From Okeania hirsuta (GTDB lineage: Bacteria > Cyanobacteriota > Cyanobacteriia > Cyanobacteriales > Microcoleaceae), in contig NZ_RCBY01000061.1 in the NCBI RefSeq assembly GCF_003838195.1, positions 1-35,342 of the forward strand: 35,342 nucleotides of DNA. The letters run 5' to 3'. The notes below the pieces were generated by a model, which ran no database searches, was not told the origin of the DNA, and worked only from the letters and a program-made list of their open reading frames with translations. Within the stretch, counting starts at the first letter, position 1, and every line of letters begins with the position of its first letter. A program made the translations under genes and the position numbers. Positions 14,388 to 29,165 of this stretch are shown here, piece after piece.

Positions 14388-16646
14388 TTACCATATATTG
14401 TTATCTCCCCCGATTTTTTCACTCTCGCGAAGTTCAAAAAGATATCCTCGTTGTTCGACTACCAAATCATCTACGTACCAAGGTGCTAATAATTTCCCCC
14501 CTAACCAAGGAACTATGGATGAGCAAGCAAACAATTTCCAAGGTGAGTCGGCAGGGCAATTGCATTTGGAGTCAACAATTGTCACGCTACTAATATTCAT
14601 CACAGGTAGAATAATCTCTCTGACTCTTGCTTGCGATCGCGGATCAATACAAACTACCTTACCACCAAACCAAAATGTAACCCAAAGATAACCTGCACGA
14701 TCTACAGCTAATCCATCAGGTACTCCTTCATGCTCCTGGGAAACGATAAATTGGCGATCGTGGTAAAACTCAGAACAATCACCATTAACAACGAAAACGT
14801 GAATCGACCGTTCCAAGCTATCTACAACGTAGAGCGATCGCCCATCTGGGGATAATCCCATACCATTAGCATAGCTTAGTCCCGCAAACATTTCCTGGAT
14901 TTGTCCTTGGGGATTGCACTTTAGCAGTTTTCCTTTGTCCTTAATACCTGTGGTATCCTCATTAATGGTGTTAAACCAGATGTTTCCTGTTGTGTCGATA
15001 ATTACATCATTACTAACTAACTTTTTACCCTGATAGGTTTCGATTATTGGTGTTATTTTCTGGGTATGGAGATTAAATTGCACTAGCCCCAACTCTCCAG
15101 ACAACACCAACGTACCTTTTGTCAATACTGCGACACCGTAACACAAACCAGGTAAGGGAAATCTCTGCACCTGGCAGGTGGTTAAGCACAATTTAATTAG
15201 CTGAGGGTTACCGTAGTCTAAGCAAAATAGTTGATTAGTTTCCCCATCGTAGCAAAGTCCCTCACCTCCTTGAAGAGGACAGTCTTGCACAACAGAAACT
15301 TGATAGGTTGGGGAGCGTCTTTCTAAGAGTAAGGCATTGCGTAGGTGTTCCCCGTAAAATTGTAGAGCAGCTCGGTTAGCACCCACAAGGTTGAGTTCTG
15401 CGAGGGGAGTAGGATGATAGTGAGTGTCTTGAATTTGTTCTCCTGGTTCACAATTAAAAGTAATCAATTGTGAGCAATCAAGAGTTTGTTGAGCAAGGTT
15501 AAAATCAAACAGTGTTGAGGCAAGACCACTTTTACGAGTGGAAATATACAGACGACAAGTGGTGATTATTTCTTCTTCTGATCGGTGTTGAGGAGCTTGG
15601 GGACAAATTCCCTGAGCTAATTTCAGGGCAGCTTTGGGTAAATTAAAATTCAGACTCTGCTGATATAGAAAGCCAAAGGTTGCACTCATGCGGGCATTTA
15701 TTTCAATTAAGATCGGGGTATCTTGCCCTTGAAGCCAAAATTCTGCACTGAAAAAGCTGTTATCTAAACCACTATCTTGAATAAAATTAGTCACCCGAGC
15801 GTAAATATTTTGCTGTTGTTTACAACTAACTTGAGCAGGAAAAATATAACAATCAACTGAGCCATCTTCGGCTTCCAATGTGTCCACTAAACCGACAAAA
15901 TGAACCTGTCCTTGATAGACAAAACCATCACAGGTTAAAGGTTGACCAGAAACCATCTCTTCCACTAAAAGGGGAACTTGAGATGTTGTAGCTAGAGGGT
16001 ATTTTCTGCTATCAATAAATTCTTGGAACAAAACCTGATACATTTGCCACCAAGGTTGATAATTCTTGGCAAGATTGTTGCATAATTCTGGTAACTGTTC
16101 TGGTTTATTTATCTTCCCACAAAACATACCGTAACTGGAGCAAACTGGCTTCACAAATAGGGGAAACTTCAGTTTAGTTAAAATCTGCTCATCAATTGTC
16201 AATTTCCCTTCATTTTCCCATTGCACAACAGAGTAACCAGGGGCATAGGAATCAATTTTACGGGCATAAAATTTATGAAAACATTGCACCACACTTTCAA
16301 AACGAGGACCAAATAAATTAAGCTTTTCACAAACTATTGCTGCTACCAAATTGGCAATATCAAAACTATAGTAAATAGCCACAATTTGATGTGCTTGGGC
16401 ATAAGCTATCGCATCTTGGCAAAAAGCTACTAAATCTACTCGATCTTTGATTTTCGGTGGGGTAGTTTGTAAACAGGAATATTCTAGGCAATGAAAACAA
16501 TAATCAGAAAATTCAGCACGATAAAATAACTGTTTTTCATTCTGAGATGGACACAAAACCAAAATAGGAATTAGTTTATCGGATGGATTAATTACAGTTA
16601 CTGTGGCAACTTTAAGTGTGAACTGAGAATAAATATTTTTTACCAT
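14388..16646 (-). CDS. ATP-grasp ligase fused to an SMP-30/gluconolactonase-like beta-propeller
   Basis: Two domains are visible. The first ~400 residues are ATP-grasp: an A-loop strand FPLFVKPVCSSYGMF near 175, the nucleotide-binding LLVEEMVSGQPLTCDGF near 240 and the metal site ILIEINARMS near 325. Such enzymes activate a carboxylate as acyl phosphate and join it to an amine or thiol. From about residue 455 to the end is an SMP-30/NHL propeller with blades marked GEGLCYDGETNQLFCLDYG, NDVIIDTTGNIWFNT, ANGMGLSPDGRSLYVVDS and PDGLAVDRAGYLWVTFWFGG, a fold that binds a divalent metal and often hydrolyses lactones. I chose ATG 16646, which overlaps the surE stop by 7 bp and implies translational coupling; a longer reading from 16685 is possible. 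The domain combination is unfamiliar to me, and the substrate is unknown. Confidence 0.82.
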   Translation of the reverse strand: MVKNIYSQFTLKVATVTVINPSDKLIPILVLCPSQNEKQLFYRAEFSDYCFHCLEYSCLQTTPPKIKDRVDLVAFCQDAIAYAQAHQIVAIYYSFDIANLVAAIVCEKLNLFGPRFESVVQCFHKFYARKIDSYAPGYSVVQWENEGKLTIDEQILTKLKFPLFVKPVCSSYGMFCGKINKPEQLPELCNNLAKNYQPWWQMYQVLFQEFIDSRKYPLATTSQVPLLVEEMVSGQPLTCDGFVYQGQVHFVGLVDTLEAEDGSVDCYIFPAQVSCKQQQNIYARVTNFIQDSGLDNSFFSAEFWLQGQDTPILIEINARMSATFGFLYQQSLNFNLPKAALKLAQGICPQAPQHRSEEEIITTCRLYISTRKSGLASTLFDFNLAQQTLDCSQLITFNCEPGEQIQDTHYHPTPLAELNLVGANRAALQFYGEHLRNALLLERRSPTYQVSVVQDCPLQGGEGLCYDGETNQLFCLDYGNPQLIKLCLTTCQVQRFPLPGLCYGVAVLTKGTLVLSGELGLVQFNLHTQKITPIIETYQGKKLVSNDVIIDTTGNIWFNTINEDTTGIKDKGKLLKCNPQGQIQEMFAGLSYANGMGLSPDGRSLYVVDSLERSIHVFVVNGDCSEFYHDRQFIVSQEHEGVPDGLAVDRAGYLWVTFWFGGKVVCIDPRSQARVREIILPVMNISSVTIVDSKCNCPADSPWKLFACSSIVPWLGGKLLAPWYVDDLVVEQRGYLFELRESEKIGGDNNIW

Positions 16647-17332
16647 AAACAGTATTTGGCGATCGCAATGTTCCCTGACAAACACACATCAACATCTGTA
16701 CCGGAATCAGACTTGCGGTTGATATCGTCTCCCACATAAAGATACCCATTCTCTTGCTTCACAAATTCCGTGAGTAGGGGACGGGTACACAGGGAACAGA
16801 AGACAATCTCTGGCTCTGGCGATCCCGGCTCTAGGTGGGGAAAATTAACACTCCATAATGTCCCAGGATCGACGGTTTGAGTTAGTAATTCCTGCAACAC
16901 CCGCACTGTCCATTGGGTGGCTCGCTCCCAGTCTAACTCCCAGTCAGTGCGTTTAAAATGAGAAAAGGCAATGGCAGGAATCCTATGTTGGGTGGCTTCC
17001 CTAGCAGCAGCTATGGTTCCTGAAGGATAAATATCTGAACCTAGATTACAACCACCATTAATTCCAGAAACGACAAAATGGATATCGTCATAGAGATAGT
17101 TGATGCCCAGACGAACACAATCTGCTGGGGTACTGTCTACACTCACCTCAGTGTCGGAGCGCCATTCTACAGGAATAACGGTGCGAATATTAACCCGATG
17201 ACCACAGCCAGACTGGTGCTCTTTAGGAGCAACAACTACAATCGGATCAGTGGTTACTTGAAACAATGCTTTGTGTAAGGCTTGAATACCGGGAGCATCA
17301 ATCCCATCATCATTAGTTACTAAAAAAGTCAT
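16640..17332 (-). CDS. surE: SurE-family 5'/3'-nucleotidase or related phosphatase
   Basis: Metal-dependent phosphatase acting on nucleoside monophosphates or other small phosphate esters. The N-terminal metal site TNDDGIDAPG (Asp8, Asp9), Ser41 in HQSGCGH and Asn92 in SGINGGCNLGSD, followed by YPSGTIAAARE, are all the SurE active-site elements. At 230 residues it is slightly short, lacking part of the usual C-terminal swap arm. It starts 21 bp after the acyltransferase stop and overlaps the next start, so it belongs to this operon. Its task is then probably dephosphorylation of a pathway intermediate rather than housekeeping nucleotide turnover; that is inference. Confidence 0.88.
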   Translation of the reverse strand: MTFLVTNDDGIDAPGIQALHKALFQVTTDPIVVVAPKEHQSGCGHRVNIRTVIPVEWRSDTEVSVDSTPADCVRLGINYLYDDIHFVVSGINGGCNLGSDIYPSGTIAAAREATQHRIPAIAFSHFKRTDWELDWERATQWTVRVLQELLTQTVDPGTLWSVNFPHLEPGSPEPEIVFCSLCTRPLLTEFVKQENGYLYVGDDINRKSDSGTDVDVCLSGNIAIAKYCLW

Positions 17333-17353
17333 AATTTCAGATAATTCAGTGAT

Positions 17354-18712
17354 TTAGTTGCTGTGATAACTTGGTATAGGTAGGAAAGAACGGTTATAAT
17401 CGCGGTCAAAACCCACCCAATCTACCGGGATGCCACGAAGATAAAGTGCAGCAGTGCTGGTTAACATTTGTTGCCAGTCTATTTCAGTTGGAGACAAACT
17501 TGGCAGCCATAAGTACTCAGCATCTGGTAGACACTGGCAACCTCTTCGTAGTAAAGTTGGTTTTGGCCCTATTTCTACGAAAATCTCAATTCCCTCCCTT
17601 TTTAGACTATTCATGCCAGCTAAAAACTCCACTGGTTCGATAATCTGACGACACCAATAATCTGGAGAAGTCACTTCCTTTATTACTACTTTCCCCGTCA
17701 TACTAGAAACTAGCTTAATTTGGGGTGGAGAAAAACTTATTTCTCGGAGCGCCTGCTTAAACTCACCTAACATAGGTTTCATCAAGGGCGAATGGAAAGC
17801 AACAGAAGCATTTAGTTTTTTAATTTCAAGTCCCTGTGCTTCTACTGCCGTAGACACTGCGCCCACATCCTCGATTTTGCCAGCAATAGCGACATTTTTG
17901 GGGCCGTTGATGGCGCTAATCCAAATAGGACAAGGCTGGGAACCAATAATTGTGCGAACTTCTTGTTCTGATGCTTTTACTGCCACGATCTTACCATCCT
18001 TTGGTAATTCTGCCATCAGCCGACTGCGTTCGGCAATCACTTTCAAAACATTTTCCAGACTAAAAACTCCAGCAACACAAGCAGCAGCATATTCCCCTAC
18101 ACTATACCCCATCATTACATCTGGTTTAATTCCCCAAGATTTCCATAGTTCAAACATAGCATACTGTACTGCAAACAATGCTGGTTGGGTATAAGCTGTT
18201 TCATCAAGCAGATATTGGGTTGACTCTTCTATTTCTTCTGGAGGATAGAGAATTTCCAATAACGGCTTTTCTAAGTATGGACTAAGAATGTTGTTACAGC
18301 GATCGAGTGCTTGTCGGAAAGTCGGTTGAGTTTGGTAGAGTTGGCGACCCATACCTACATACTGATAGCCCTGAGAGGTAAAGAGAAAGGCAATCTTGCT
18401 CTTGTTTTCCTGGTTTTCAACAACCCCCATACTCTCTGAGTCAGGTGCCATTAATTTTTCCCGCATCTGTGCCACTGAGGAGGCGATAACTGCCAAGCGA
18501 TACTTCAGGCACTTACAGCTTATATTGGCAGTAAAACAAATATCCGCCAATTTTTCGTCGGTAGTAGACTCTAAATAGCTAATGTACTTTGCCCTCAATT
18601 CCTGCAATTCTATTTCCGTCTTAGCGGATAAAATCAGGAGATGTAAGGGGCGTTCCTCTTTTCTTTTTCCTGGTTTTATATTTGATTGTTGAACTTCACA
18701 AAAAACATTCAT
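17354..18712 (-). CDS. Stand-alone PKS-type acyltransferase (AT) with flanking linkers
   Basis: The protein begins with the KS-AT linker of type I polyketide synthases (RPLHLLILSAKTEIELQELR, 21-40). It continues with an AT domain (about 106-400: IAFLFTSQGYQYVGMGRQLY) and ends in the post-AT linker (RGIPVDWVGFDR ... LPIPSY). Nucleophile Ser204 sits in GYSVGEY and the partner His306 in VAFHSPLM. The AFH motif suggests malonyl-type rather than methylmalonyl units. The His normally before the serine is Tyr here, and FTGQGSQ reads FTSQGYQ, so donor or activity may differ. No KS or ACP is encoded nearby. It may be a trans-acting AT or a domain excised from a PKS. The MITE-like repeat at 18729 separates it from the upstream methyltransferase. 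Confidence 0.87.
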   Translation of the reverse strand: MNVFCEVQQSNIKPGKRKEERPLHLLILSAKTEIELQELRAKYISYLESTTDEKLADICFTANISCKCLKYRLAVIASSVAQMREKLMAPDSESMGVVENQENKSKIAFLFTSQGYQYVGMGRQLYQTQPTFRQALDRCNNILSPYLEKPLLEILYPPEEIEESTQYLLDETAYTQPALFAVQYAMFELWKSWGIKPDVMMGYSVGEYAAACVAGVFSLENVLKVIAERSRLMAELPKDGKIVAVKASEQEVRTIIGSQPCPIWISAINGPKNVAIAGKIEDVGAVSTAVEAQGLEIKKLNASVAFHSPLMKPMLGEFKQALREISFSPPQIKLVSSMTGKVVIKEVTSPDYWCRQIIEPVEFLAGMNSLKREGIEIFVEIGPKPTLLRRGCQCLPDAEYLWLPSLSPTEIDWQQMLTSTAALYLRGIPVDWVGFDRDYNRSFLPIPSYHSN

Positions 18713-18728
18713 TCACTTTAGATATCTA

Positions 18729-18975
18729 GTTAGGGTTTGCGCTCAAAAGTCTTTTTGCTAAGGCAGGGAGTAGAGAGTAGGGAGTAGTTAAGATTCAAGA
18801 TTTGGAGGTAGTTGTAGAGGAGAGACTCGGAAAAATTATCCCTTAATTTTTCTGCCTCTATCTTACTCAAATACTAACTTTTTGAGCCTTATCAAGCGAA
18901 AATACGATACTTTTTCCGACCTAAAAATGCTACAAACTTTATTCGTCAATGCTTCTATAGTTAACACTGATTTAA
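18729..18975 (+). repeat. MITE-like repeat, TAGGGTTTGCTGA family, between AT and methyltransferase genes
   Basis: It starts TAGTTAGGGTTTGCGCTCAA and keeps the family blocks: AAAGTCTTTTTGC, GGGAGTAG heptamers, TTTTTCTGCCT, CTTTTTGAGC and CTTTTTCCGACC. The right terminus is degraded (AACACTGATTT). It fills the gap between the methyltransferase stop and the acyltransferase start, so the acyltransferase promoter region may derive from it. Confidence 0.7.
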
Positions 18976-18990
18976 GAAAGCCGTTTTTAC

Positions 18991-20157
18991 CTAAAGCCTG
19001 GTGGCATCCAACCACATTACCCCAAACAAATCATGACCTACACCATAGCCTGGTTGTTGCGTTGCTTCCAAACAACGTAACGCTTCAGGCAGCATCAACT
19101 CTACCTTCTTTCGGTACAAATTTGGGTCAGAAATATGGGACAATTCCTTTTGGACATTTTCCTGGAATTCTTGAATCTCTGAAGGTAATTCCACAGACTC
19201 CACTGCTAGAGACTCACCCAAAAGTGCTGCTGCTTGACTCACCAAAGTATTCCACCAACGAGAAAATTTCCTGAAGAAATCTAAGATATGCTCTGGTGCT
19301 GAACCTAACTCTACTGAAAATAGCAGTTGACTTAAATCTGTCTCCACTGAACTATCAAGTAAACTATTAACTAGGTTCCGATACTGGGGTAATTTCGGAT
19401 TAAACTGTCCCGTTGAGGTATGACGACCTACCATGATAGAACGGTCAAAAAACTCAAATCTTTCTACAGGACAGCCTACTTCATCCATAGCTTGCTGCAT
19501 AATTTCCTGCAAGTCGTGATGGGAGTAAAAGCTCATCCAGGTAGCTTCTGCATCCCCTTCACTCTCAAAAAAACTCATGGAGTAATTCCAACGGCTTTCT
19601 TGCCATTGGGGTGTCCACTCAATACTGTAGCGCCCTAAGACATCCACCACCACAGCACACCGGGAGCGATGCTGGCAAACATTGGTAGCGATCATCTTGA
19701 GGGCTTGGTGAAGTTCTTTGTGGGTAAGATGGGAGTAGGGAACTCCACAAGAGAGGTAAATATCGAAAGGCTCAGTCAAACTGCTGGTGCGAATATCTGC
19801 ACACTCAAACCTAGCGTTACTATGGTTGGCATAGATATTACGGGCAGTTTCTACCATCTGGCTGCTAATATCAACACCTAAATAATCTAGCTCGTAGTTG
19901 CCAGCAATGGCGAAATCATCACATAATAACTGGGATAGTAAAGCGTATCCATCACCTGTACCTGAACCAACATCAAGAACTTTTAGCTTGTCTCCTTTCT
20001 TTCTGTTGCATAATACAATTGCTCTCTTAAATACTGAACAAGAAAAAGGTTCTTCCCACTCAATTTTTACACCATCACGACGACTTTTAGATAGGTAGTG
20101 TTCAACGGCATTGCTTTCATTGTAAACAGTCTCTATTTGTTTTGGAGTTACTTTCAT
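18991..20157 (-). CDS. Class I SAM-dependent methyltransferase, 388 residues
   Basis: Rossmann-type methyltransferase. Motif I is VLDVGSGTGDGY (60-71), the ribose-binding acidic residue is in LGVDISSQMVETA (93-105), motif II is FECADIRTSS and the following strand is FDIYLSCGVPYSHL. The last ~150 residues (from about 240) form an extra C-terminal domain that I do not recognise. The start is ATG 20157 with an AGGAG ribosome-binding site at 20160-20164. It is the first gene of the minus-strand group leading to the AT, surE and ATP-grasp genes. The methyl acceptor (O, N or C) cannot be told from sequence. Confidence 0.85.
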   Translation of the reverse strand: MKVTPKQIETVYNESNAVEHYLSKSRRDGVKIEWEEPFSCSVFKRAIVLCNRKKGDKLKVLDVGSGTGDGYALLSQLLCDDFAIAGNYELDYLGVDISSQMVETARNIYANHSNARFECADIRTSSLTEPFDIYLSCGVPYSHLTHKELHQALKMIATNVCQHRSRCAVVVDVLGRYSIEWTPQWQESRWNYSMSFFESEGDAEATWMSFYSHHDLQEIMQQAMDEVGCPVERFEFFDRSIMVGRHTSTGQFNPKLPQYRNLVNSLLDSSVETDLSQLLFSVELGSAPEHILDFFRKFSRWWNTLVSQAAALLGESLAVESVELPSEIQEFQENVQKELSHISDPNLYRKKVELMLPEALRCLEATQQPGYGVGHDLFGVMWLDATRL

Positions 20158-20825
20158 GTCTCCTACAATTAAATTAGTTAACCCACATTCAGCACTTCAG
20201 ATTATATCACAACAAGCTACAGAAAATTTGTGTATTTAATTAAGTAGAATTATTTATGGCTTTGAGTAACTTCAAGTGAGAGCATAAAGCTAATGATAGA
20301 ACACTGTTCCGCTTTGCTAGGCAATGATAATGTGAGCACATTTTCAATTGGATATGGTTAGGAAAACCATCCATACTAAAAATTTATTAATATTGATGAT
20401 TCCCATCAATAACTTTTGCTTCTAAGTAAGTTGGCATAAATAAACCAAACTATGTAAAGATAAGTAAATATGGATAATATACCTACATATATGAGTGAGG
20501 AAATTTACACATGGGGGTAGGGGAAAAAAGGGAAACTACAGTACGGAACGTTTTAAATTTTACTCAAATCAAACTGCTTAAAATTTATTTACATAATTTG
20601 GTTTTTTTTCACCGACTTATATCATGTCCGGATAATTAGTGATCAAAAAACTTTCTCTTTCTTTTCTTCTTTCTTCCCTGCTAAATTCTAAATTCTGAAT
20701 TCTAAATTATGAATTATGAGTCGTTTATTTATAACTGTTTAACCGGACATGATATTACTTATCCTTAAATCATCTTACCATTACTATGTAGGACTACCCA
20801 ATAATTATTATCTAAATTAGTAAAT
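20158..20825. other. Divergent intergenic region between methyltransferase and Asn-synthetase-like gene
   Basis: This gap should hold promoters for both directions. The MITE-like element at 20619-20755 lies 70 bp before the Asn-synthetase-like start and may have altered its control. I cannot pick a promoter with confidence. No small gene is visible. Confidence 0.5.
20619..20755. mobile_element. MITE-like element of the ATATCATGTCCGG family, 137 bp
   Basis: The terminal inverted repeats ATATCATGTCCGG and CCGGACATGATAT are perfect over 13 bp, and GATAATTAGT / ATAACTGTTTAA adjacent to them are partly complementary. The non-coding interior has a T/C-rich TTTCTTTTCTTCTTTCTTCC tract and AATTCTGAATTCTAAATT repeats. 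Confidence 0.8.
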
Positions 20826-22559
20826 ATGAAGTTTTCTTTTTTATCATTAAATAAACAATTATCCATTCCTACAAATAAAAATTTAGTTGCCCCTAATTGG
20901 CATATTGCTTGGGGCAAAATAGACCAGATAAAGGCAGATATTTCTTGGAGCGATCGCCATTTTTTGATTCATCAAGTTCAACCGATTTTTAGCTCTAATG
21001 AAAGGTTTGTTGTTGTGGGTGATATTTGTTTAACTAATCTGCCACAATTACAAAAACTTTTAGATATTTCTACCTCTCTTACTGTTACTCAAATAGTTGC
21101 TGAATTATGGCAAAGTTATGGAAAAAAAACTTTTTTGTTGTTGGAAGGAATTTTTGCTTTAGCAGTTTGGGATAGGGAAGAAAAAGAATTATGGATTGGA
21201 CGCGATCGCGTGGGTGGACGGACTTTATATTACACGACTACTGACTCAACTATTTGGATTTCTCCTCGGTTAAAAATTCTTTCTTCTTACCATTCTAATG
21301 AGTTAGATTTAATTGCTTTACGGGATTATCTTTGTTGTGCTTTTGTACCTGGAGAACGTACTCTTTGGCAGGAAGTAAAAGAATTAAGACCGGGAAGTTT
21401 CATCCATTTTACTAATGATTTAAAAATTCCATCACCAATGTCTTATTGGCAACCACAAGCACAAGTTAAAGATGCCGATCAAGCTTTAGAATATCATGGT
21501 CAAAAATTACGTTCTCTTCTAGATAAAATTATTCCTGAATATTTACCAAATAATCAACCAGTGGGAGCTTATTTATCGGGTGGTTTAGATTCGAGTTGTA
21601 TTGTGGCATTAGCAGCAAAAAATCATGATTATCCAGTACATACTTATTCAATACATTTTGGTGCAGAATTACCGAACGAATTAGAATTTTCTAGTTTAGT
21701 TGCTGAACATTGTCAAACTCAACATCATATCCTAGAAATTACACCGGATGATATGTGGAATAAACTGCCAATTACTATGGCAAATTTAGACGATCCTATT
21801 GGTGATCCGTTAACAGTTCCTAATTATCTTTTAGGAAATTTAGCAGCAGAAAATGTGGGAGTTATTCTAAATGGTGAAGGTGGGGACCCTTGTTTTGGCG
21901 GACCGAAAAATAAACCGATGTTATTAAATAATATTTATGGTGGTTTGCAGTCAGGAAAGCCAGATATTGTTTCGTCTTATCTAAGTTCTTTTCATAAATG
22001 TTTTGCAGATTTATCTAAGCTATTAAAACCGGAGATTTGGCAAGCTATAAAAACAGAATCTTATATATTTGAATCTGACTTAAATTCTGATGCTGATTAT
22101 TTAAAACGTTTGATGTTACTCAATATTAAATTTAAGGGAGCAGACCATATTTTAACTAAGGTAAATAATATGACTAGGGCGGCTAGTTTAATCGGACTTT
22201 CCCCATTATTTGACCAAAGAATTGTGGAACTAAGTTTAGAAATTCCATCAGAATATAAATTATCTGGTGCTGATGAAAAAGCGGTATTAAAACGAGCAGT
22301 GGCAGACTTATTACCAGAGAGAATATTAACTCGTCCAAAAAGTGGAATGATGGTACCTGTTAACTTTTGGTTTAAACAAATATGGCAACGTCGAACTAGG
22401 AATTTATTGTTAAGTAAAAATGCAGCGATCGCTCCCTATTTCAATCAAGATTTAATCAAAGATTGGTTAAATTATCGTGGGGATACTTGGAAGCGTTATG
22501 GTATTAAATTATGGTTATTAGTAAGTTTAGAAATTTGGCTACAAGTTAATCAAAAATAA
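20826..22559 (+). CDS. Asparagine-synthetase-like amide synthetase without glutaminase cysteine (first paralog)
   Basis: The protein has the two-domain plan of class B asparagine synthetases. Residues 1-195 are a degenerate Ntn-hydrolase domain, recognisable by FALAVWDREEKELWIGRDRVGGRTLYY at 110-136. Residues 220-577 are the ATP pyrophosphatase domain, with the PP-loop SGGLDSS at 251-257 and NGEGGDPCFGG at 349-359. Position 2 is Lys, not the catalytic Cys, so glutamine hydrolysis is not expected. Beta-lactam synthetase and related enzymes show the same loss and use an amine other than glutamine-derived ammonia. The normal GEGSDE is GEGGDP, which also departs from true AsnB. It is transcribed away from the methyltransferase cluster. 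Likely role: ATP-dependent amide or lactam formation in a pathway encoded here. Confidence 0.85.
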   Translation: MKFSFLSLNKQLSIPTNKNLVAPNWHIAWGKIDQIKADISWSDRHFLIHQVQPIFSSNERFVVVGDICLTNLPQLQKLLDISTSLTVTQIVAELWQSYGKKTFLLLEGIFALAVWDREEKELWIGRDRVGGRTLYYTTTDSTIWISPRLKILSSYHSNELDLIALRDYLCCAFVPGERTLWQEVKELRPGSFIHFTNDLKIPSPMSYWQPQAQVKDADQALEYHGQKLRSLLDKIIPEYLPNNQPVGAYLSGGLDSSCIVALAAKNHDYPVHTYSIHFGAELPNELEFSSLVAEHCQTQHHILEITPDDMWNKLPITMANLDDPIGDPLTVPNYLLGNLAAENVGVILNGEGGDPCFGGPKNKPMLLNNIYGGLQSGKPDIVSSYLSSFHKCFADLSKLLKPEIWQAIKTESYIFESDLNSDADYLKRLMLLNIKFKGADHILTKVNNMTRAASLIGLSPLFDQRIVELSLEIPSEYKLSGADEKAVLKRAVADLLPERILTRPKSGMMVPVNFWFKQIWQRRTRNLLLSKNAAIAPYFNQDLIKDWLNYRGDTWKRYGIKLWLLVSLEIWLQVNQK

Positions 22560-22565
22560 GTTTAT

Positions 22566-22725: not shown

Positions 22726-22760
22726 AATATATAGAATAGATAAGATAGATATAGGTTTTT

Positions 22761-22787: not shown

Positions 22788-22792
22788 CTACA

Positions 22793-24139
22793 TTAACCAA
22801 AACTATCAGATGCGAAAAAACCTACATTTCGACTATCATTATTAATACCAATAAAAATTATTCCATCATCACCACTATCACCAGAATCTAAACTATTATC
22901 TGAAGTTGAAGTATAACCATTAGCTACTGCTTGAGTTTTAGCAATACCTTGAGAAACTACTTGTAGTAATTTACGAGGAGAAAAAGATTCTAATTCTACA
23001 TAAAATCCTGCCTCTAACCATGCTAATTCATCTGTTGATAAAGTTGACTTAACTGCTGTAGGTATTTGTTGCACTTGTCTTGCTGATTCATCTGACTTTA
23101 AAATCCACATATTCTTACTAGGAAATACATGACGTGGCAATAATCCTAAATCATAAATAATTAGATTATTTCCGCCAAACCAATTAGGACTATTTCGCAG
23201 TTCATTTATCATCCTGACTCCACGGGGGTTAGCACTATGAAAAGCATAAATTTTTAAATCTGGATTTTGTTTTAACATTTGCATTACTGTACTAAAAATA
23301 TTCTGGGGATATCCATCAATACTGAGTACAGCGCAGTTATGTTCAAAGTGGAAATTATTAGCTATTAAAAATTGAGCAATTTCGGCAGTGTCACACACAA
23401 TAACTCGGTCAAAACTATAAGCTGTAACTTCAGAATTAATTTTTATAGGTTCACTCATTTTTCTGGAAGTTCGTAAAAAAATTCTCACCTTACCATTAAT
23501 TTCTTGCCAACGTATCAACCATTGTATAATTTGACTTTGATGAAACTGAAATGCTTGGGGTATTTTATGTTGAATAGTTAGTTGTCGCGTACCCAAATAA
23601 ATTAAGAATATTCCTAATCCAGTGCCTAACAAAAATAATAAAAAATCTATATTTTTTACTTTGGAGAATTTAAAAAACCAAACTAAAACAGCAACTAGAA
23701 TTAATCCTCCAATAATTTGTATAGCTCTGGCAAAACTTCTTCTCTCTTTAGAGCTATATAGTTTCGATTGACTTGCCCAAATAAAGTATAAAATTAAGGG
23801 TACAAATATTATAATAGGTGCTAAAGGATAGAACTCCATTGCTGAAATAGCAGTATTTATAAATGGTAATAAAAAAAATAACACAAATAAGCATCCAACT
23901 GAACCAACATTTCCTTTTTTTGTCAAACGTTTCTCTAAGAAATACCAAAACTGCTTAGTAGTAAAAAATAAGGTTTTTTCAGAGGAAATAGTTTGAATAG
24001 AATTCTTGAAAAATATATCTGTAAATTTACTTCCTGCTTGTGGGTCAAAAACAAAAGGATGATTACAATTTTTACATCTACCCCCAGTTTCTGTTCTTTC
24101 TTTTAAATTACTATCCATTCCACATCTTACACATTTCAT
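22793..24139 (-). CDS. Zinc-ribbon multi-pass membrane protein of unknown function
   Basis: An N-terminal zinc ribbon has two CxxC knuckles (Cys3/Cys6 and Cys22/Cys25, in RCKNCNHPF). Four hydrophobic segments lie at roughly 78-100, 103-122, 138-155 and 163-182, followed by a ~250-residue soluble domain. That domain has alternating strands such as DRVIVCDTAEIAQFLIANNF and HNCAVLSIDGYP, resembling a Rossmann or Toprim-like alpha/beta fold, but I cannot name it. The tail is rich in Ser, Asp and Gly (SDNSLDSGDSGDDG). A strong AAGGAG site overlaps the stop of the upstream PLP-fold gene and the start is 11 bp after that stop, so the two genes are co-expressed. Function unknown. Confidence 0.75.
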   Translation of the reverse strand: MKCVRCGMDSNLKERTETGGRCKNCNHPFVFDPQAGSKFTDIFFKNSIQTISSEKTLFFTTKQFWYFLEKRLTKKGNVGSVGCLFVLFFLLPFINTAISAMEFYPLAPIIIFVPLILYFIWASQSKLYSSKERRSFARAIQIIGGLILVAVLVWFFKFSKVKNIDFLLFLLGTGLGIFLIYLGTRQLTIQHKIPQAFQFHQSQIIQWLIRWQEINGKVRIFLRTSRKMSEPIKINSEVTAYSFDRVIVCDTAEIAQFLIANNFHFEHNCAVLSIDGYPQNIFSTVMQMLKQNPDLKIYAFHSANPRGVRMINELRNSPNWFGGNNLIIYDLGLLPRHVFPSKNMWILKSDESARQVQQIPTAVKSTLSTDELAWLEAGFYVELESFSPRKLLQVVSQGIAKTQAVANGYTSTSDNSLDSGDSGDDGIIFIGINNDSRNVGFFASDSFG

Positions 24140-24150
24140 CTATTTACTCC

Positions 24151-25368
24151 TTAACTAAAAATTTGACCATTCAATAAAATATTATAATCTTCTCGCTGAC
24201 GAATTAATCTATGCTGACTTTCTTCTAACAAAACTTCAGCAGGGCGGGGTCTATGTAAAAAATGAGAAGACATTGCATAACCATAAGCACCCGTATCTAA
24301 AATAGCTAAAATATCTCCTTTTTCTAAAGCAGGTAACTGACAATTTTTACCCAAATAATCACGGGAATAGGTTGTATTGCCACAAACATCTGTTAAATAT
24401 AAATCTGACTTATTTATTTCCCGAAAACTAACAATTTCTCGATAACCTCCATGTACAGATGGCACAGATAAATTAGCCACAGTTGTGTCAACTCCAACTA
24501 TTTGTTTATCTCCCTGCCATTTGACAGAAATAACTTTAGTTAATACTGTGCCTGAACGAGCAATAGCTGCGCGACCAGGTTCAATAATTAATTTAATTTT
24601 TCTGCCTACTTTTTCTATCGCTGCTGTTAACTCCGCACCAAAAGTTTGCCAGTTAAAAGCTATCCCATTGTGATGATAAGGATAACCAAAACCACCACCA
24701 AAATCTAAATATTCCCAGTCTGGTAAAAATTTACCAATTGCTAATATTGGTTCAATTACTTGAGTAAAAGCTTTCGTAGCATTTGTGCCAGTACCTCGAT
24801 AAAAATGTAAACCACTCAACTTTAAACCCACTGACTTTGTAATTTGAATTGCCTGGGAAAATTCCTCTGGTCGAACACCAATTCGACTTTCTCCCGTTAG
24901 TTCTGGTAAATTCAGTCTCAAACCTAATTTTGGCGTAATTTCTCTGGCAAACTTATCTATATATACGTCACAAAATAACTGTAGTTGACTCACACTATCT
25001 AAATTAAAAGTAGTTACCCTCCAGTTTAATAGTTGTGAAAATTCTTGAGCGTTTAAGTTACTGCCACTATAGACAATTTTTTCAGGGGAAAAACCTGCCT
25101 TTAATCCCAGAAAAACATCCCCTGGTGTATTAGCATGAAGACCCCATTTATACCTTTGAAAAATTTTTAATAAAGATACATTACCATTAGTTACACTGGC
25201 AAAATGAAATTCTGTGTGGGGATAGGGAATAGATTCAGTAATATGATTTATCGTTTTTATCAGAATATCGCCATCATAAACATACAGAGGAGAACCATAA
25301 TTTTCTAGTAATTCGTGGGCAAATTTCAGAGAAAAAGGAGTCACAAAATTTGGCATATTTTCTACCAT
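24151..25368 (-). CDS. Alanine-racemase-fold (Orn/DAP/Arg decarboxylase family 2) protein lacking the PLP lysine
   Basis: The fold and length (405 residues) match diaminopimelate decarboxylase-like type III PLP enzymes. SRIGVRPEEF (161-170), the phosphate loop FGGGFGYP (223-230), EPGR (263-266), a DVCGN general-acid cysteine (Cys329) and GAYGYAMSSHF (360-370) are all present. The Schiff-base lysine is not: FAxKAxSNxxxL of the family reads FASVTNGNVSLL, with Val59 (codon GTA) at the lysine position. The alignment across this motif needs no gap. Normal decarboxylation via an internal aldimine is therefore unlikely. It may bind PLP or substrate without covalent linkage, catalyse another reaction, or be a regulatory pseudoenzyme. 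It is translated together with the zinc-ribbon membrane protein. Family confident, function unknown. Confidence 0.8.
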   Translation of the reverse strand: MVENMPNFVTPFSLKFAHELLENYGSPLYVYDGDILIKTINHITESIPYPHTEFHFASVTNGNVSLLKIFQRYKWGLHANTPGDVFLGLKAGFSPEKIVYSGSNLNAQEFSQLLNWRVTTFNLDSVSQLQLFCDVYIDKFAREITPKLGLRLNLPELTGESRIGVRPEEFSQAIQITKSVGLKLSGLHFYRGTGTNATKAFTQVIEPILAIGKFLPDWEYLDFGGGFGYPYHHNGIAFNWQTFGAELTAAIEKVGRKIKLIIEPGRAAIARSGTVLTKVISVKWQGDKQIVGVDTTVANLSVPSVHGGYREIVSFREINKSDLYLTDVCGNTTYSRDYLGKNCQLPALEKGDILAILDTGAYGYAMSSHFLHRPRPAEVLLEESQHRLIRQREDYNILLNGQIFS

Positions 25369-25654
25369 AGTTAACTGAACAAGTAACAGTCTAGATCATA
25401 ATCTATGTTATCAGTAGAGAGTATGCCATTGGCTAATATATGACTATCAACTAATCATACTAAATCTGGTTTGAAGAAGTAGCTTATAATTTATCCGTAT
25501 GTCAAGCAGTGATAGTTCGTTATACCAAGTCTAGTTTATATAAAGAGATTTATTACTCCTCTTTTTATGATTATTTATAGAAAGGATTTATCAATATTTT
25601 TTTATCCTGGTAATTTCCCAAATGAAACCATATTACTCCCTTAATAAAACGAGT

Positions 25655-26080
25655 TTATGGGGATTTAAAGACTGAAGTTTCCCAGTCATAACCTTCATCA
25701 AAATTTGTCATTTTGTCTATATCAATTTTTATTTTGTAGCCATCAGGTAAAGAACACAGAATTGTAAAATCACGAGCTATACGTCTGTCGTTTAATTCTA
25801 TAACTGCAAAATTCTCTCTTTCTGTTGAAAATTGTCTTTGTTTATTAGCCTTATTCAAGAGTTTTTGTCTGACCGATGACAATGCTTTTTGTGTATGAGT
25901 CTGAATATTTATTACTCCATCCTCATCTTCTTGAAAATTTGGCATTATACAAAAAACTTCGAGGTAATATTTAGAGCTGTCACAACGCTCAACTATAACA
26001 TCACATTCATCAGTTTCCAATGATAAAGATTTGACCAATCTTTCTCTAATTAGTGGAATATAGTTGTGGTAAACAATCAT
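25655..26080 (-). CDS. Hypothetical protein, 141 residues
   Basis: I do not recognise this protein. It is soluble, with no signal peptide or membrane segment, and mixes acidic and aromatic residues (KYYLEVFCIMPNFQEDEDGV near 37-56; YDWETSVF near the end). A basic helical stretch lies at SSVRQKLLNKANKQRQFS. There is no phosphopantetheine-attachment motif, so it is not a carrier protein. It sits between the PLP-fold gene and the second Asn-synthetase-like gene on the same strand, but gaps of 286 and 655 bp argue against one compact operon. Start ATG 26080. Confidence 0.55.
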   Translation of the reverse strand: MIVYHNYIPLIRERLVKSLSLETDECDVIVERCDSSKYYLEVFCIMPNFQEDEDGVINIQTHTQKALSSVRQKLLNKANKQRQFSTERENFAVIELNDRRIARDFTILCSLPDGYKIKIDIDKMTNFDEGYDWETSVFKSP

Positions 26081-26286
26081 TTCAGATCTGACAGCTTCGC
26101 AATCTTTCCATTCCTTCTTTTGAGCTTTTATTCTCTTTGTAAAATAAGCTGCATAGCTGGGATTATATTGGTTAATTTATTTGAAGTATTTAAGAATTTT
26201 TAAATAGTTTCGATATGGGTTAATTGGGAAATCATTATTCCTGTGGTCTAATACCAATTTCATAAAATATTGCTACAGTGACGACA

Positions 26287-26321
26287 CAGGGAACAGGGAA
26301 CAGGGAACAGGGAACAGGGAA
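26287..26321. repeat. Heptanucleotide tandem repeat (STRR), GGAACAG
   Basis: At least four perfect consecutive GGAACAG units, non-coding and flanked by AT-rich DNA. Confidence 0.9.
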
Positions 26322-26551
26322 AGAAAAACATAAATATTAAAGAGGAAAAAAAGTGGAAATTTTATAATTTATGGAATTTCTAATTTTTTCTTTTAGGAAT
26401 AAATCACAAATTAAGATGTAACTGCCTTTTTTGAATTTGGTCTAAATATTCTTATTTCTGTTGTTTCATGTACTCATTCTCAAGTAAATCATGGTTGTAG
26501 AAATATTCTTCTATAATATCAATTTCGTTTTTAATCATAATTCATTTAAGG

Positions 26552-26630
26552 AAAAAGGAAGAAAGAAAAATTTTCGTTGTCTGATATCTAAGTTTTTGAT
26601 ATGTCAAATACAGTAATGGCGACTGCTATA
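26552..26630. repeat. Dispersed ~85-bp repeat (partner at 5050)
   Basis: Contains GTCAAATACAGTAATGGCGA followed by CTGCTATAATTA and a leading GAAGAAAGAAAA tract, matching 5050-5137 in order and orientation. Confidence 0.6.
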
Positions 26631-26735
26631 ATTACACATACTCTCAAGCTCTAAAGTTTATGTTGTAAAAATTACAGAGAATAAAATTAAGTAATTAATT
26701 TTCCCTAAGCACTTAAAGTTTTTATCAGATCAAAT

Positions 26736-28289
26736 TTAACTTTTAACCTGCTCAACCCACCTCCACCACCAAGGCGGTAATAATAAAGGATTATACCCAT
26801 AATTACTAATAGTAGATTCTCCTAAAATTGTTACTCGCCAAATTTCCCAAATCATTAATAACCAGAGAATTTCACCCACGCGTCTATTCCTAATTTGCCC
26901 CCCTAATTTTCCTTGAATTATCGTAATAGCTATATCCGAAATAAATCTACCTTCTGCTTGTAAAACTTCTGGGTTTAACCATTGCCTAATTTCTGACCAT
27001 AATTCATTTAAACACCAATAACTTAAAGGTACTCCCATCCCTCTTTTTTCTCGCCAAACAACTTCCGGTGGTAACCAAGACTCTACCGCTTTTTTCAATA
27101 TATATTTTTCATTTGAACCTTTTAAATTAAATTCTCCTGGTATTTGAAAAGTCCATTCAGTTAGCTCTAAATCACAAAAAGGCGATCGCACAACTAACCC
27201 ATTAGCAAATGCCAAATTTGTTGCTCTAGGATGAATATTTTGTGCCCCCTTTAAAATTAAACTAGCACGACGTAATTTATGAATTAATCCCATACAAAAA
27301 GTATCATCTAAAGCAAATTCTACCCACTTTTCTGCTGAAATATTTTTGACTCTTTCATAAATTTGTGGCTGAAAAACTTTCTGTTCATAACCCCATAATT
27401 TATGAAAAGTATGCAAATATTTTTGAATGAAACTTTCTTGTTTATTGTAAACAGCAGCAGCAATAATTGGTTTATTCGTCCACCCACCAAATAATTGATC
27501 TCCTCCTTCACCATTGAAAATTACAGATACCTCTTGAGCTGCAGTTTGACATAATAAATATAAAGGTACTGTCACCCCATCACCAAAAGGTAAATCTAAA
27601 GCTTTAACTGTATCTAATAAAGCATTTTTTATCAGCTTTGGAGTTACAGATACTTTCATTAAAGGTATATCTAAATGTTCAGCAACTTTTTCTGCATATC
27701 CCCATTCTGAAAAACTATTTTTCCCAAAATCTAGAGTATATGCACGCACTTTTATTCCCTCTTGTACTAATAAAGCTGCAACTATTGAAGAATCTAAACC
27801 TCCTGAAAGAAAAACTCCCACAGGTTCAGAATTTAAGTCAATAATTTGCCGATTAATCGCATTTTTAAGTAGGGTTTGTAACTGTGTAATTGCATGATTT
27901 TTATCTTCAACTTGTACGAGATTTTCTCGCCAGTCATAATGACGTTGAATTTGTATTTCTGGCTCCAAAAAAATTTGTTCTGTTCCTGCTGGTACCGCAA
28001 CAATATTCTCTACTGGAGTGAGCGGTGTCGGTACATAAGAAAAACAAGTATAACCATAAAATCCGGGAATACTAATAGATGGCTCATAAATAATAGGTAA
28101 TAATAACTTTAATTGAGAAGCAAACCAAATAACTTTTTCAATTTTCACCCAATATAAAGGCACTCTTCCAAAAGGTTCCCTACCTAAAATTAATTGATTA
28201 TTTTCTTGTTTTACCCAAGCATCAATACTATCAGATAAACCAGAGGCAGATAGAGAAGCAATCAAAGTCTCACCCCTAGCTAATTTCAT
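26736..28289 (-). CDS. Asparagine-synthetase-like amide synthetase (second paralog), N-terminal domain short
   Basis: It has the ATP-PP domain of class B asparagine synthetases, with the PP-loop SGGLDSS at 162-168 and NGEGGDQLFGG at 259-269. A core of the Ntn-type N-terminal domain (LILGREPFGRVPLYW, 33-47) precedes it. Read from ATG 28289 the N-terminal domain lacks its first strands and has no Cys2, so no glutaminase is expected. A GGGGA ribosome-binding site lies 5 bases before this ATG. The 50 codons immediately upstream are open in the same frame and separated only by TAA (28290-28292); they may encode the missing N-terminal part. Its loop and FGDGVTVPLYLL segment parallel IGDPLTVPNYLL of the paralog at 20826, so the two probably act on related substrates. 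Confidence 0.83.
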   Translation of the reverse strand: MKLARGETLIASLSASGLSDSIDAWVKQENNQLILGREPFGRVPLYWVKIEKVIWFASQLKLLLPIIYEPSISIPGFYGYTCFSYVPTPLTPVENIVAVPAGTEQIFLEPEIQIQRHYDWRENLVQVEDKNHAITQLQTLLKNAINRQIIDLNSEPVGVFLSGGLDSSIVAALLVQEGIKVRAYTLDFGKNSFSEWGYAEKVAEHLDIPLMKVSVTPKLIKNALLDTVKALDLPFGDGVTVPLYLLCQTAAQEVSVIFNGEGGDQLFGGWTNKPIIAAAVYNKQESFIQKYLHTFHKLWGYEQKVFQPQIYERVKNISAEKWVEFALDDTFCMGLIHKLRRASLILKGAQNIHPRATNLAFANGLVVRSPFCDLELTEWTFQIPGEFNLKGSNEKYILKKAVESWLPPEVVWREKRGMGVPLSYWCLNELWSEIRQWLNPEVLQAEGRFISDIAITIIQGKLGGQIRNRRVGEILWLLMIWEIWRVTILGESTISNYGYNPLLLPPWWWRWVEQVKS

Positions 28290-28442
28290 TTATTCCCCAC
28301 CAATATAACTAATTCCACCAACAGTTATTCCCTGATTAAAATTAAACACTTTTGTCTTTTTTTCCTCAGTTAGCTTGGTGAGAATAGTATTTAATTCTAG
28401 TGGGAAACCATATCCCCAATAACCAATAAATTGATATTGCAC
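28290..28442 (-). CDS. 50-codon ORF in frame with, and directly before, the second Asn-synthetase-like gene
   Basis: GTG at 28442 opens a frame starting VQYQFIGYWGYGFPLELN and ending GGISYIGGE, then TAA, followed at once by the ATG of the synthetase in the same frame. It begins 14 bp after the stop of the upstream membrane-protein gene. It resembles the first strands of an Ntn-type domain, which the synthetase lacks. It may be a detached N-terminal piece re-initiated at TAA-ATG, or a gene split by a nonsense change. The GTG start has no strong ribosome-binding site. Confidence 0.5.
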   Translation of the reverse strand: MQYQFIGYWGYGFPLELNTILTKLTEEKKTKVFNFNQGITVGGISYIGGE

Positions 28443-28456
28443 TTAATCACAAAATT

Positions 28457-29092
28457 TTACTTAACTGTAAACTCAGTTTGACTGAGAAAGCGATCGCCTA
28501 AATACATCTCCACCTGCCAATTTCCCACAGGTGAACCAGTATGAAATTTATACTTACAATAAGTCGGCCAAACTGCTTTATTAATTTGCTTAGTTTGGTA
28601 ACTATTTTGATGACTAATTTCACCATTAGAATCAATCCAGTTGCACCCTAAATAAAGTTTTTTTCCTACTGGTGCATCTTGTAGAGTTACCCGATAAAAT
28701 ACTTCTGAATTTTGTTGACTATCAACCACAATTAGTATTTCTTGACCACTATTTGTTTCTAATGTCAACTTACTTTGCCCTGAATTAGCATAGACATTAT
28801 TTAATGCTTGTTTTTGAGTTTGAAACCATAAGAAACTAGCAACTATAACTACTACCAACCCAGAAAGCACCCCCACAGTAATCAATTTATTCCGCTTCTG
28901 CTCTACTGCCAACGCTTCTCGCCTTCGCAACTGCATCATTGCCTCATCTACCAAGTCAGTCGGGAGATTTAGCTCTTGTAAAATCTGCTGCATCTGCTCT
29001 CGGTCAATTTCTTCGTCGCGCTGTCTAGATAATTGCTCAACTTCTGCCACCAGTTGAGTAAATTGTATTTGTGTCAGTCGTTCTTCTGTCAT
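28457..29092 (-). CDS. Conserved-type cyanobacterial single-pass membrane protein
   Basis: From ATG 29092 (MTEERLTQIQ) the protein has 211 residues. An N-terminal charged helical domain of about 75 residues follows (VAEVEQLSRQRDEEIDREQM, ILQELNLPTDLVDEAMMQLR, RRREAL). Next comes one membrane helix (LITVGVLSGLVVVIVASFLWF) and then a beta-rich domain of about 110 residues (LYLGCNWIDSNGE, VGNWQVEMYLGDRFLSQTEF). The last part resembles an immunoglobulin-like fold of the type seen in cyanobacterial hypothetical proteins. A longer reading to 29164 adds an unlikely leader. It is the first gene before the second Asn-synthetase-like enzyme and only 14 bp from the small ORF, so they may be co-transcribed. 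Function unknown. Confidence 0.7.
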   Translation of the reverse strand: MTEERLTQIQFTQLVAEVEQLSRQRDEEIDREQMQQILQELNLPTDLVDEAMMQLRRREALAVEQKRNKLITVGVLSGLVVVIVASFLWFQTQKQALNNVYANSGQSKLTLETNSGQEILIVVDSQQNSEVFYRVTLQDAPVGKKLYLGCNWIDSNGEISHQNSYQTKQINKAVWPTYCKYKFHTGSPVGNWQVEMYLGDRFLSQTEFTVK

Positions 29093-29165
29093 AGATATTA
29101 GGTTAGGAAAATTATAACGCACAGAAAAAGAAGCAAAATAACTATTTATAAGTATAGTTTTCAAC

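Follow-up and report, generated by a model that had tools for sequence, protein, structure and literature searches.

The window, meaning the whole stretch of DNA analysed here, is the Okeania hirsuta contig NZ_RCBY01000061.1 of 35,342 nucleotides, in which the region at issue covers positions 14,388-29,092. The first-pass annotation had described this region as a biosynthetic neighbourhood of two Cys-less asparagine-synthetase-like enzymes, an ATP-grasp/propeller fusion, a stand-alone AT, SurE, a methyltransferase and a Lys-less PLP-fold protein. Gene calls and profile matches recovered every one of these genes at the position and with the enzyme type given to it, as well as two proteins within the same range that had been omitted, at 22793-24139 (Toprim-like) and 28457-29164. 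The genes of the region are:

28457..29164 (-): orf235, with an Ig-like beta domain at the C-terminus, preceded by a long helix that includes a hydrophobic stretch
26736..28289 (-): AsnS2, asparagine-synthetase-like, without the glutaminase Cys (PF00733, E 4e-61)
25655..26080 (-): orf141, a small protein seen in Okeania and a single close relative only
24151..25368 (-): LysA*, with a DAP-decarboxylase fold (Orn/DAP/Arg decarboxylase; TIGR01048, 244.9 bits)
22793..24139 (-): Toprim protein, with a four-Cys ribbon, hydrophobic helices, a Toprim domain modelled as Topo VI-A/Spo11-type and an SFG tail
20826..22559 (+), convergent to the other four module genes: AsnS1, asparagine-synthetase-like, without the glutaminase Cys (PF00733, E 6e-68)
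18991..20157 (-): methyltransferase of 388 aa, part of a methyltransferase-SurE pair; outside the module
17354..18712 (-): stand-alone PKS-type AT with KS-AT linker (PF00698 and PF22621); outside the module
16640..17332 (-): SurE (NF001493, 282 bits against a cut-off of 230); outside the module
14388..16685 (-): fusion of ATP-grasp_4 and SGL (SMP-30 propeller); outside the module

The AT and SurE genes are 21 bp apart and SurE overlaps the fusion by 46 bp, in agreement with the close operon spacing first described for this part, and the Toprim protein and LysA* genes form an equally tight pair, with an 11 bp gap. The small orf141 is present in three of 80 compared loci, is found in L070, L071 and L075, and is probably accessory.

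The left half as a separate neighbour group

The left-half genes were surveyed in 61 genomes of the family. The methyltransferase was found in four of these, with 56-72% identity in the other three, where it is each time followed by SurE, and the full-length fusion in two. The only other full-length fusion found (G437, 68%) lies on a different contig from the methyltransferase-SurE pair of that genome. This pair also occurs elsewhere without right-half genes alongside, and in G437 and G439 the left-half genes are accompanied by mere remnants of the right half, located on other contigs. None of the three genes for methyltransferase, SurE and fusion is present in the 80 right-half loci or in 19 neighbourhoods compared within the family. 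The listed relatives of the AT (40-55%) sit in long frames, except for two stand-alone copies (G442 and G441), which no other window gene adjoins on the stretches read.

A single biosynthetic pathway across 14-29 kb had been proposed, with an AT-derived acyl input, tailoring by SurE and the methyltransferase, and three ATP-dependent ligations. The two halves do adjoin in this one contig, but they were side by side in no other genome examined, occurring independently and in other contexts, and their G+C content differs (0.40-0.46 in the left half, 0.31-0.37 in the right). We therefore reject a joint pathway as extremely improbable. The left half is patchy, unrelated to the right half, and its neighbour by chance. 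From the proposed grouping, the association of the Cys-less pair with the Lys-less PLP-fold protein is strongly supported, but the join between left and right is not. The malonyl-type acyl input likewise belongs with the left half, whose AT resembles the AT regions of long PKS-like frames.

Conservation of the right half

The right half (20.8-29.2 kb) is a conserved cyanobacterial module composed of orf235, AsnS2, LysA*, the Toprim protein and AsnS1. Among 388 Cyanobacteriia genomes surveyed, LysA* was found in 47, about one in eight of those sampled, and the Toprim protein in the same 47 and two more; AsnS1 has a match in all 47 LysA* genomes and AsnS2 in 46. These are raw counts that ignore kinship; by our own count, the 47 genomes span 29 genera and 10 families. 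The E-value cut-offs were our choice, and LysA* of G105 was missed in the first pass. The co-occurrence holds despite frequent unlinking (AsnS1 in G304, G190 and G381; AsnS2 in G381 and G197), the Toprim gene of G190 lying about 3 Mb away from LysA*, so that the four members are found together almost without exception even where their genes are scattered. In 31 control genomes, chosen by hand and not at random, AsnS1 was present in one, where ORFs resembling a transposase interrupt it, and AsnS2 in none. Some copies are irregular, either incomplete or interrupted by an in-frame stop: this applies to the Toprim matches of G237 (74 positions) and G010 (228), to AsnS1 in G277, G224 and G291 among the 47 LysA* genomes and in G277, G405, G420 and G439 among 32 family genomes, and to AsnS2 in G277. 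G399 has an intact AsnS1 without LysA*, in G331 AsnS2 and LysA* form a hybrid frame and AsnS1 gave no match, and G326 has no AsnS2 match, its LysA* sitting at the very start of a contig.

Gene order was compared in 80 loci, all retrieved through LysA*, whose presence in 80 of 80 is thus by construction; many of these loci end at contig edges. The Toprim gene lies immediately downstream of LysA* in 74 and AsnS2 immediately upstream in 64, the four same-strand genes occur in order in 58, and AsnS1 is convergent downstream in 38. AsnS2 is found in 68 loci and is absent from the stretch in 12, seven of which have 7.7-10 kb available upstream. Co-occurrence across genomes is established for four of the five members and synteny for all five, orf235 having been assessed by synteny alone. 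The module genes are under purifying selection (dN/dS 0.19-0.56), which, together with synteny and co-occurrence, led us to reject a set of random neighbours or pseudogenes, and the five proteins very probably act as one functional unit.

A search of the 80 loci restricted to ORFs of at least 90 aa found no other family in more than 19 loci. Families assigned by reading as SDR and ABC ATPase occur in seven and six loci, respectively, and there is therefore no constant tailoring or transport partner. PADLOC returned no anti-phage defence match for AsnS1, the Toprim protein, LysA* or orf235; it gave a QueC-type match for AsnS2, and outside the module the methyltransferase matched mad2 weakly.

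Residue states of the module proteins

The AsnS1 of the window starts with MKFSF and AsnS2 orthologues with a F[IL]GYWG-type sequence, so that neither protein has a Cys at position 2 and both lack the N-terminal nucleophile, as the first-pass annotation had noted. A single mechanically called ORF start has LC, but it precedes the conserved start. The N-terminal domain of AsnS2 is short in this assembly because of an in-frame stop (28290-28292) directly upstream of the ATG; in the other Okeania read, the frame is open and the N-terminus carries FIGYWG. The ATP-pyrophosphatase motifs are intact: in AsnS1, SGG[LI]DSS and GEGGD are present in 46 of 46 sequences and R.K.G in 44, the other two being gaps, and AsnS2 has SGG[LI]DS, GE..D and R.K.G in 68 of 68, with the last Ser of the PP-loop in 66. 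A Glu-Tyr dyad (E363/Y368 of PesC) is reported to be conserved between the asparagine synthetase of E. coli and the peptide-amidating relatives (PMC13060819). As placed by alignment to 1ct9 and by spacing, the corresponding positions would be Pro355/Pro360 in AsnS1 (46/46) and Gln265/Trp270 in AsnS2 (68/68).

In LysA*, FASVTNGN aligns with YAVKANxN of solved DAP decarboxylases (2p3e and 3n2b) and the PLP lysine is thus a valine, which agrees with the Lys-less state first noted. This residue, Val59, replaces the Schiff-base lysine, and Thr333 the catalytic Cys of CE[TS]GD, in all 81 sequences, which equally keep GGG 224-226 and EPGR 263-266, the cofactor-phosphate loops, and Tyr362. The protein is under purifying selection (dN/dS 0.19-0.22). 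Its TIGR01048 score is below the cut-off of 297.9, compared with 476-499 bits for canonical copies in the same genomes (491 bits in sum for the split copy of G304). A role as the cell's DAP decarboxylase was rejected, since each of the 10 genomes checked encodes a canonical LysA at another place.

The Toprim protein opens with a four-Cys ribbon (C3, C6, C22 and C25) that presumably binds zinc, followed by four hydrophobic helices within residues 81-192, and looks like a membrane protein when model and sequence are read by eye. Structure matches to residues 1-222 are helical bundles of unrelated proteins. Residues 223-404 are modelled as a Toprim domain with a Topo VI-A/Spo11-type fold. Since the profile found no sequence match among solved structures, the acidic positions were placed from the motifs of such domains, and at what we take to be these positions the acidic triad is absent: the Glu is Cys249 in 74 of 74 sequences, and D.D reads [DNS][CA][SNT], with D/N/S at 302 and S/N/T at 304. 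The C-terminus is SFG in 66 of 74 and [STNC]FG in 73, the last Gly being kept in 73, the Phe before it in 74, the Ser in 66 and Tyr/Phe at -7 in 71. The tail is disordered in the model and the linker is free of Lys (0 of 1034 residues counted). By our count, an FG end occurs in five unrelated ORFs among 1317 others in the locus list. Across the 80 loci and the window, short ORFs with a [DEQ][STNC]FG end derive from the Toprim gene, bar one unrelated ORF on the opposite strand of L131. This protein is the least constrained member of the module (dN/dS 0.47-0.56). By a similar reading, the hydrophobic helix of orf235 would be a membrane anchor.

Possible roles and relation to known systems

Our preferred reading, tentative and in itself less probable than not, is a module that sits at the membrane and acts on the Toprim protein's C-terminal tail. 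According to this proposal, the ribbon, hydrophobic and Toprim-like part would extend a flexible, Lys-free tail ending in ...[YF]xx[DEQ]SFG-COOH. AsnS1 and/or AsnS2 would activate a carboxylate by adenylation, in the simplest case that of the last Gly, and then link it to an amine or to ammonia, drawn from a source other than glutamine because the glutaminase Cys is gone. LysA*, in which no PLP Schiff base is possible and the cofactor-phosphate and ligand loops are kept, would be a binding or presenting subunit rather than a decarboxylase, and orf235 would anchor the assembly. Co-occurrence, synteny, the conserved tail and ATP motifs, purifying selection and the precedent of AS-like enzymes would all count in favour; the apparent loss of the Glu-Tyr dyad speaks against the simplest version of the proposal, and plain AsnB-like tail amidation is thus doubtful. 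An undescribed chemistry of protein tails, in which a membrane-anchored Toprim pseudoenzyme of Spo11 type would present the SFG end and the AsnS pair would activate its glycine and couple it to an amine held by LysA*, would be a system of conjugation or capping with no kinship to E1 enzymes of the ubiquitin type or to any RiPP class known so far; it is in our view unlikely.

The SFG tail may also be a mere docking motif. It would have this role, as a linear motif, in a non-catalytic membrane complex in which LysA*, the Toprim protein and the dead glutaminase domains are pseudoenzyme sensors or scaffolds that bind ATP, PLP-like or nucleotide ligands and form no bond. The replaced hallmark residues of LysA*, the Toprim protein and both AsnS proteins, the retained ligand-binding loops and the disordered tail are consistent with such a complex. 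Yet the near-invariance of PP-loop, GE..D and R.K.G exceeds what a scaffold needs, and two separate AS-like proteins co-occur; we regard this account as rather unlikely. Quite unlikely, to our judgement, is a small-molecule pathway confined to the right half, with an amide or lactam formed by AsnS1/AsnS2 on a small metabolite that LysA* binds or presents and the other two proteins export or sense. LysA-fold proteins do bind amino acids, and, asparagine synthetases aside, the closest relatives with a solved structure are lactam-forming AS-like enzymes, among them CarA (1q15), matched by AsnS2, and the hydroxyamidotransferase 7ylz, but the lack of a constant tailoring or transport partner in the 80 loci speaks against such a pathway, and the conserved SFG end would be left unexplained.

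XrtA/PEP-CTERM exopolysaccharide loci, as their family names suggest, hold an AS-like amidotransferase together with a LysA-like decarboxylase, and the module pairs proteins of the same two kinds. A function in envelope or exopolysaccharide modification would fit the best NCBIfam model of AsnS1, TIGR03108 (XrtA amidotransferase), the match of LysA* to TIGR03099 (exosortase-associated decarboxylase), the Ig-like domain behind the hydrophobic helix of orf235, the GalE gene that adjoins the module in Okeania, and a family reading like glycosyltransferase in seven of the 80 loci. However, the scores are far below the cut-offs (260 and 178 bits for the Asn-synthase pair against 816.9; 105 against 478 for LysA*), no exosortase context was noticed by eye, and glycosyltransferase-like genes are limited to those seven loci and GalE to four, one at 24% identity; we consider this function improbable.

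The five-protein set is apparently undescribed, several members being enzyme look-alikes without the hallmark catalytic residue, and two of the five, the Toprim protein and orf235, fall in no Pfam family above cut-off. On limited literature searches, it is the assembly that appears to be new and not the folds; titles and abstract openings of open-licence papers yielded no description of this combination, a weak absence since only such papers were covered. Strict co-occurrence, a Lys-less PLP fold, a Spo11-type domain in an apparent membrane protein and a near-invariant tripeptide pose a concrete and testable problem in a group that includes genetic model strains.

Compared with LysA and BtrK, LysA* has the same fold over its full length and keeps the EPGR, GGG and GAYGYAMSS loops, but has Val for the PLP lysine and Thr for the catalytic Cys throughout. 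Antizyme inhibitor is likewise described as a decarboxylase homologue, with a regulatory role exerted through partner binding (PMC3170320, PMC3084279); it is eukaryotic, a homologue of ornithine decarboxylase, and shares no partners with LysA*. Unlike in Topo VI-A/Spo11, the Toprim domain here is part of a protein with a four-Cys ribbon, hydrophobic helices and an SFG tail, and its N-terminal matches give no clear sign of a catalytic Tyr domain. For AsnS1 and AsnS2, the closest precedents are reported to be an AS-like enzyme working on the carboxylate at the C-terminus of a ribosomal peptide, and TsrC and ScdTA, by which peptide C-termini are amidated (PMC13060819). As in these amidating and nitrile-forming enzymes, PesC included, the synthetase is AS-like and its PP-loop intact, whereas the glutaminase Cys and, as placed here, the Glu-Tyr dyad are missing; for lasso peptide cyclases, the scores of 131 and 68 bits are far below the NF033535 cut-off of 525. 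What sets AsnS1 and AsnS2 apart from all of these is their co-occurrence with LysA-fold and Toprim-fold proteins.

Conservation of the LysA* module

The window is one complete contig (C568, 35,342 bases). All genes named in the first-pass annotation are present in the window, but its list left out two proteins lying within its range:

22793-24139: the Toprim protein, 448 residues
28457-29164: orf235, 235 residues

Together with AsnS1 and AsnS2 (asparagine synthetase-like, without the glutaminase Cys) and LysA* (a DAP-decarboxylase-fold protein without the PLP lysine), these two make up the right half of the neighbourhood, which is a conserved module. With 14 LysA* orthologues as query against GTDB genomes, 163 relatives were confirmed and the best 80 were kept. 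The hosts of these best 80 include Okeania, Microcoleus, Nostoc, Anabaena, Calothrix, Scytonema, Richelia, Symploca, Moorena, Crocosphaera, Cyanothece, Spirulina and Leptolyngbyaceae, among others; the nearest named relatives of the window LysA* are Okeania MAGs (94-95% protein identity). Around these best 80 of 163 relatives, Toprim was found in 75 loci, AsnS2 in 68, orf235 in 67 and AsnS1 in 49, and no other family of ORFs of at least 90 residues occurred in more than 19. Toprim lies directly downstream of LysA* on the same strand in 74 of the 80 loci and AsnS2 directly upstream in 64, with all four in order in 58, while AsnS1 lies downstream in convergent orientation in 38 loci and in the same orientation in 3, is upstream in 8, and falls outside the stretch in 31. 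Toprim is missing from five loci: in three, the sequence ends within 252 bases of LysA*, in one it ends after 1157, and the fifth (L126), with 10 kb, holds a short, internally deleted Toprim remnant ending in QSFG. Because 7.7-10 kb of upstream sequence is available in 7 of the 12 loci without AsnS2, the gene must be unlinked or absent there.

The same association of LysA*, Toprim, AsnS1 and AsnS2 is seen across genomes. Among 388 sampled Cyanobacteriia genomes, 47 have LysA* (E<=1e-100) and 49 have Toprim (E<=1e-20), namely the same 47 plus genomes G105 and G331; within the 47, the Toprim match is incomplete in G237 (74 positions) and G010 (228). AsnS1 (E<=1e-70) and AsnS2 were then searched in these 49 genomes and in 31 controls without LysA* and Toprim. 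As raw counts that ignore kinship, AsnS1 occurs in 47/47 LysA* genomes, in G105, not in G331, and in 1/31 controls, and AsnS2 in 46/47, in both G105 and G331, and in 0/31 controls. G105, at first placed outside the LysA* set, does carry LysA* with an insertion, as seen on reading its sequence, and G331 has a hybrid frame of 618 residues (L183:4106-5959) that combines the initial portion of AsnS2 with the final portion of LysA*. The AsnS1 of the single positive control (G024) is interrupted by inserted ORFs that read as transposase-like. In-frame stops interrupt AsnS1 in three genomes (G277, G224, G291) and AsnS2 in one (G277), and in G326 LysA* starts at contig base 1.

In the family sample AsnS1 accompanies LysA* in 32/32 genomes, four of them with an in-frame stop (G277, G405, G420, G439). 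Five more family genomes have AsnS1 alone, intact in G399 and broken or fragmentary in G390, G411, G437 and G440; small pieces of the Toprim tail and of orf235 survive in G411 as well, G437 has only the AsnS1 end, adjoining GalE, and G439, one of the 32, has a partial LysA* beside its stop-containing AsnS1, the other members being absent from the stretch read. From these decayed AsnS1-only genomes and scraps it follows that loss of the module tends to take out the whole unit. Members may also be present yet unlinked, as are AsnS1 in G304, G190 and G381 and AsnS2 in G381 and G197; LysA* and Toprim lie ~3 Mb apart in G190 and ~48 kb apart in G224.

The left half and the remainder of the window

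A single biosynthetic pathway had been proposed across both halves, and this proposal is not supported. The methyltransferase, SurE and the ATP-grasp/propeller fusion were found in 0/80 loci around LysA*, the left-half genes have other contexts elsewhere, and G+C is 0.40-0.46 in the left half versus 0.31-0.37 in the right, so the two halves very probably do not form one unit. The AT query matched in 1/80 LysA* loci, within a long frame. In G437 and G439, which have the methyltransferase-SurE pair, right-half genes persist as remnants only, on other contigs.

The left half seems to have been acquired at strain level. The methyltransferase occurs in 4/61 family genomes, the window genome (8.79 Mb) counted, and is followed by SurE in each of the other three, with no other tested window gene beside the pair on the stretches read; the pair adjoins cytochrome oxidase genes in G442, ORFs similar in size and order in G437, and Pterin_bind and short-chain dehydrogenase genes in G439. 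Apart from the window copy, the only full-length relative of the fusion in the family is in G437 (68%), where it and the methyltransferase-SurE pair are on separate contigs; each reported match in 98 other genomes of the 388-genome sample covers the propeller half only. The window AT is of the PKS type with a KS-AT linker. Its listed relatives (40-55%) lie in long frames, taken for PKSs, except that G442 and G441 each have a stand-alone copy. AT, SurE and the fusion may form one transcription unit.

Elsewhere in the window genome (L188:3916-7451, contig C698), a distant LysA-like gene lies less than 1 kb from an ATP-grasp gene resembling the ATP-grasp half of the fusion, with more ORFs on the same strand; this is possibly a natural-product locus. 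The window itself also contains a PD-(D/E)XK family transposase split across two ORFs (2067-2810), a methyltransferase cut off past its first motif with the next ORF in another frame, possibly a broken gene (6145-6931), a HAMP-HisKA histidine kinase fragment without ATPase domain (12395-12928), and ~40 bases (14388-14427) that recur at 98% identity at positions 3422-3462 of contig C64 of the same genome. An in-frame stop directly 5' of the AsnS2 ATG (28290-28292), which may be real decay or an assembly error, leaves the protein of this assembly without its N-terminal domain, unlike in other Okeania, where this frame is open.

Proteins of the module

LysA* has the DAP-decarboxylase fold over its full length and scores below the TIGR01048 cut-off; a canonical LysA above the cut-off is also present in 10/10 genomes examined. 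The PLP lysine is Val and the catalytic Cys is Thr in 81/81 sequences, while GGG, EPGR and Tyr362 are retained in 81/81. Internal insertions in some copies (L182:2390-4027; L185 in G190; L184 in G304) split or weaken the profile match. AsnS1 and AsnS2 have no Cys at the conserved N-terminal start and keep their ATP motifs.

The Toprim protein consists of a ribbon with four Cys (invariant in 74/74), four hydrophobic helices, a predicted Topo VI-A/Spo11 Toprim-type domain with Cys at the Glu position in 74/74 and a degenerate D.D motif, and a tail predicted to be disordered. Between 33 and 71 residues follow its VELE motif, with 0 Lys among 1034 linker residues counted, and the protein ends in [YF]xx[DEQ]SFG (Gly 73/74, Phe 74/74, Ser 66/74); with near-duplicates removed, SFG ends 38/45 and FG 44/45. 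From its sequence, this conserved C-terminus after a variable linker looks like a tail substrate or a docking motif. orf235 is a hydrophobic helix plus an Ig-like domain. Against two or three close relatives, dN/dS is 0.19-0.32 for LysA*, AsnS1 and AsnS2; orf235 gives 0.37-0.41 and the Toprim protein 0.47-0.56.

Truncated Toprim copies bearing the same end exist. A 109-residue frame (L107:12629-12955) has the four-Cys ribbon fused straight to the SFG tail, without the hydrophobic and Toprim parts, and two other Okeania loci (L091:11230-17917, L092:11206-15126) hold tandem full and partial copies, several ending in SDSFG.

Possible function and known systems

The retained ATP sites and the dead glutaminase point to a chemistry in which AsnS1 and AsnS2 would activate a carboxylate with ATP and would take nitrogen from a source other than glutamine. 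AS-like enzymes acting on the C-terminal carboxylates of ribosomal peptides are known (preprint PMC13060819). Based on this precedent, the kept ATP sites and the conserved tail end, one may speculate that the Toprim tail is modified at the membrane, a tentative idea that we rank first. The strongest single argument against it is the loss of the Glu-Tyr dyad that the same preprint describes for AS-like peptide amidases; the corresponding positions, as probably placed through a 1ct9 alignment and spacing, are Pro/Pro in AsnS1 and Gln/Trp in AsnS2. A non-catalytic complex of pseudoenzymes ranks second and is likewise doubtful, and an amide pathway acting on a small molecule, ranked third, is unlikely.

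The Toprim protein and orf235 gave nothing above cut-off in Pfam or NCBIfam and no PADLOC match at all, and a full-text search of openly licensed papers returned no relevant report of the combination. The folds are known, and the assembly is new within the reach of these searches. LysA* shares the fold, GGG, EPGR and Tyr362 with DAP decarboxylase and differs from it by Val for Lys and Thr for Cys, whereas the Toprim protein shares its domain type with Topo VI-A/Spo11 but has the Glu replaced and the D.D motif degenerate. AsnS1 and AsnS2, by the placement adopted here, would differ in their missing dyad from the AS-like peptide amidases of PMC13060819.
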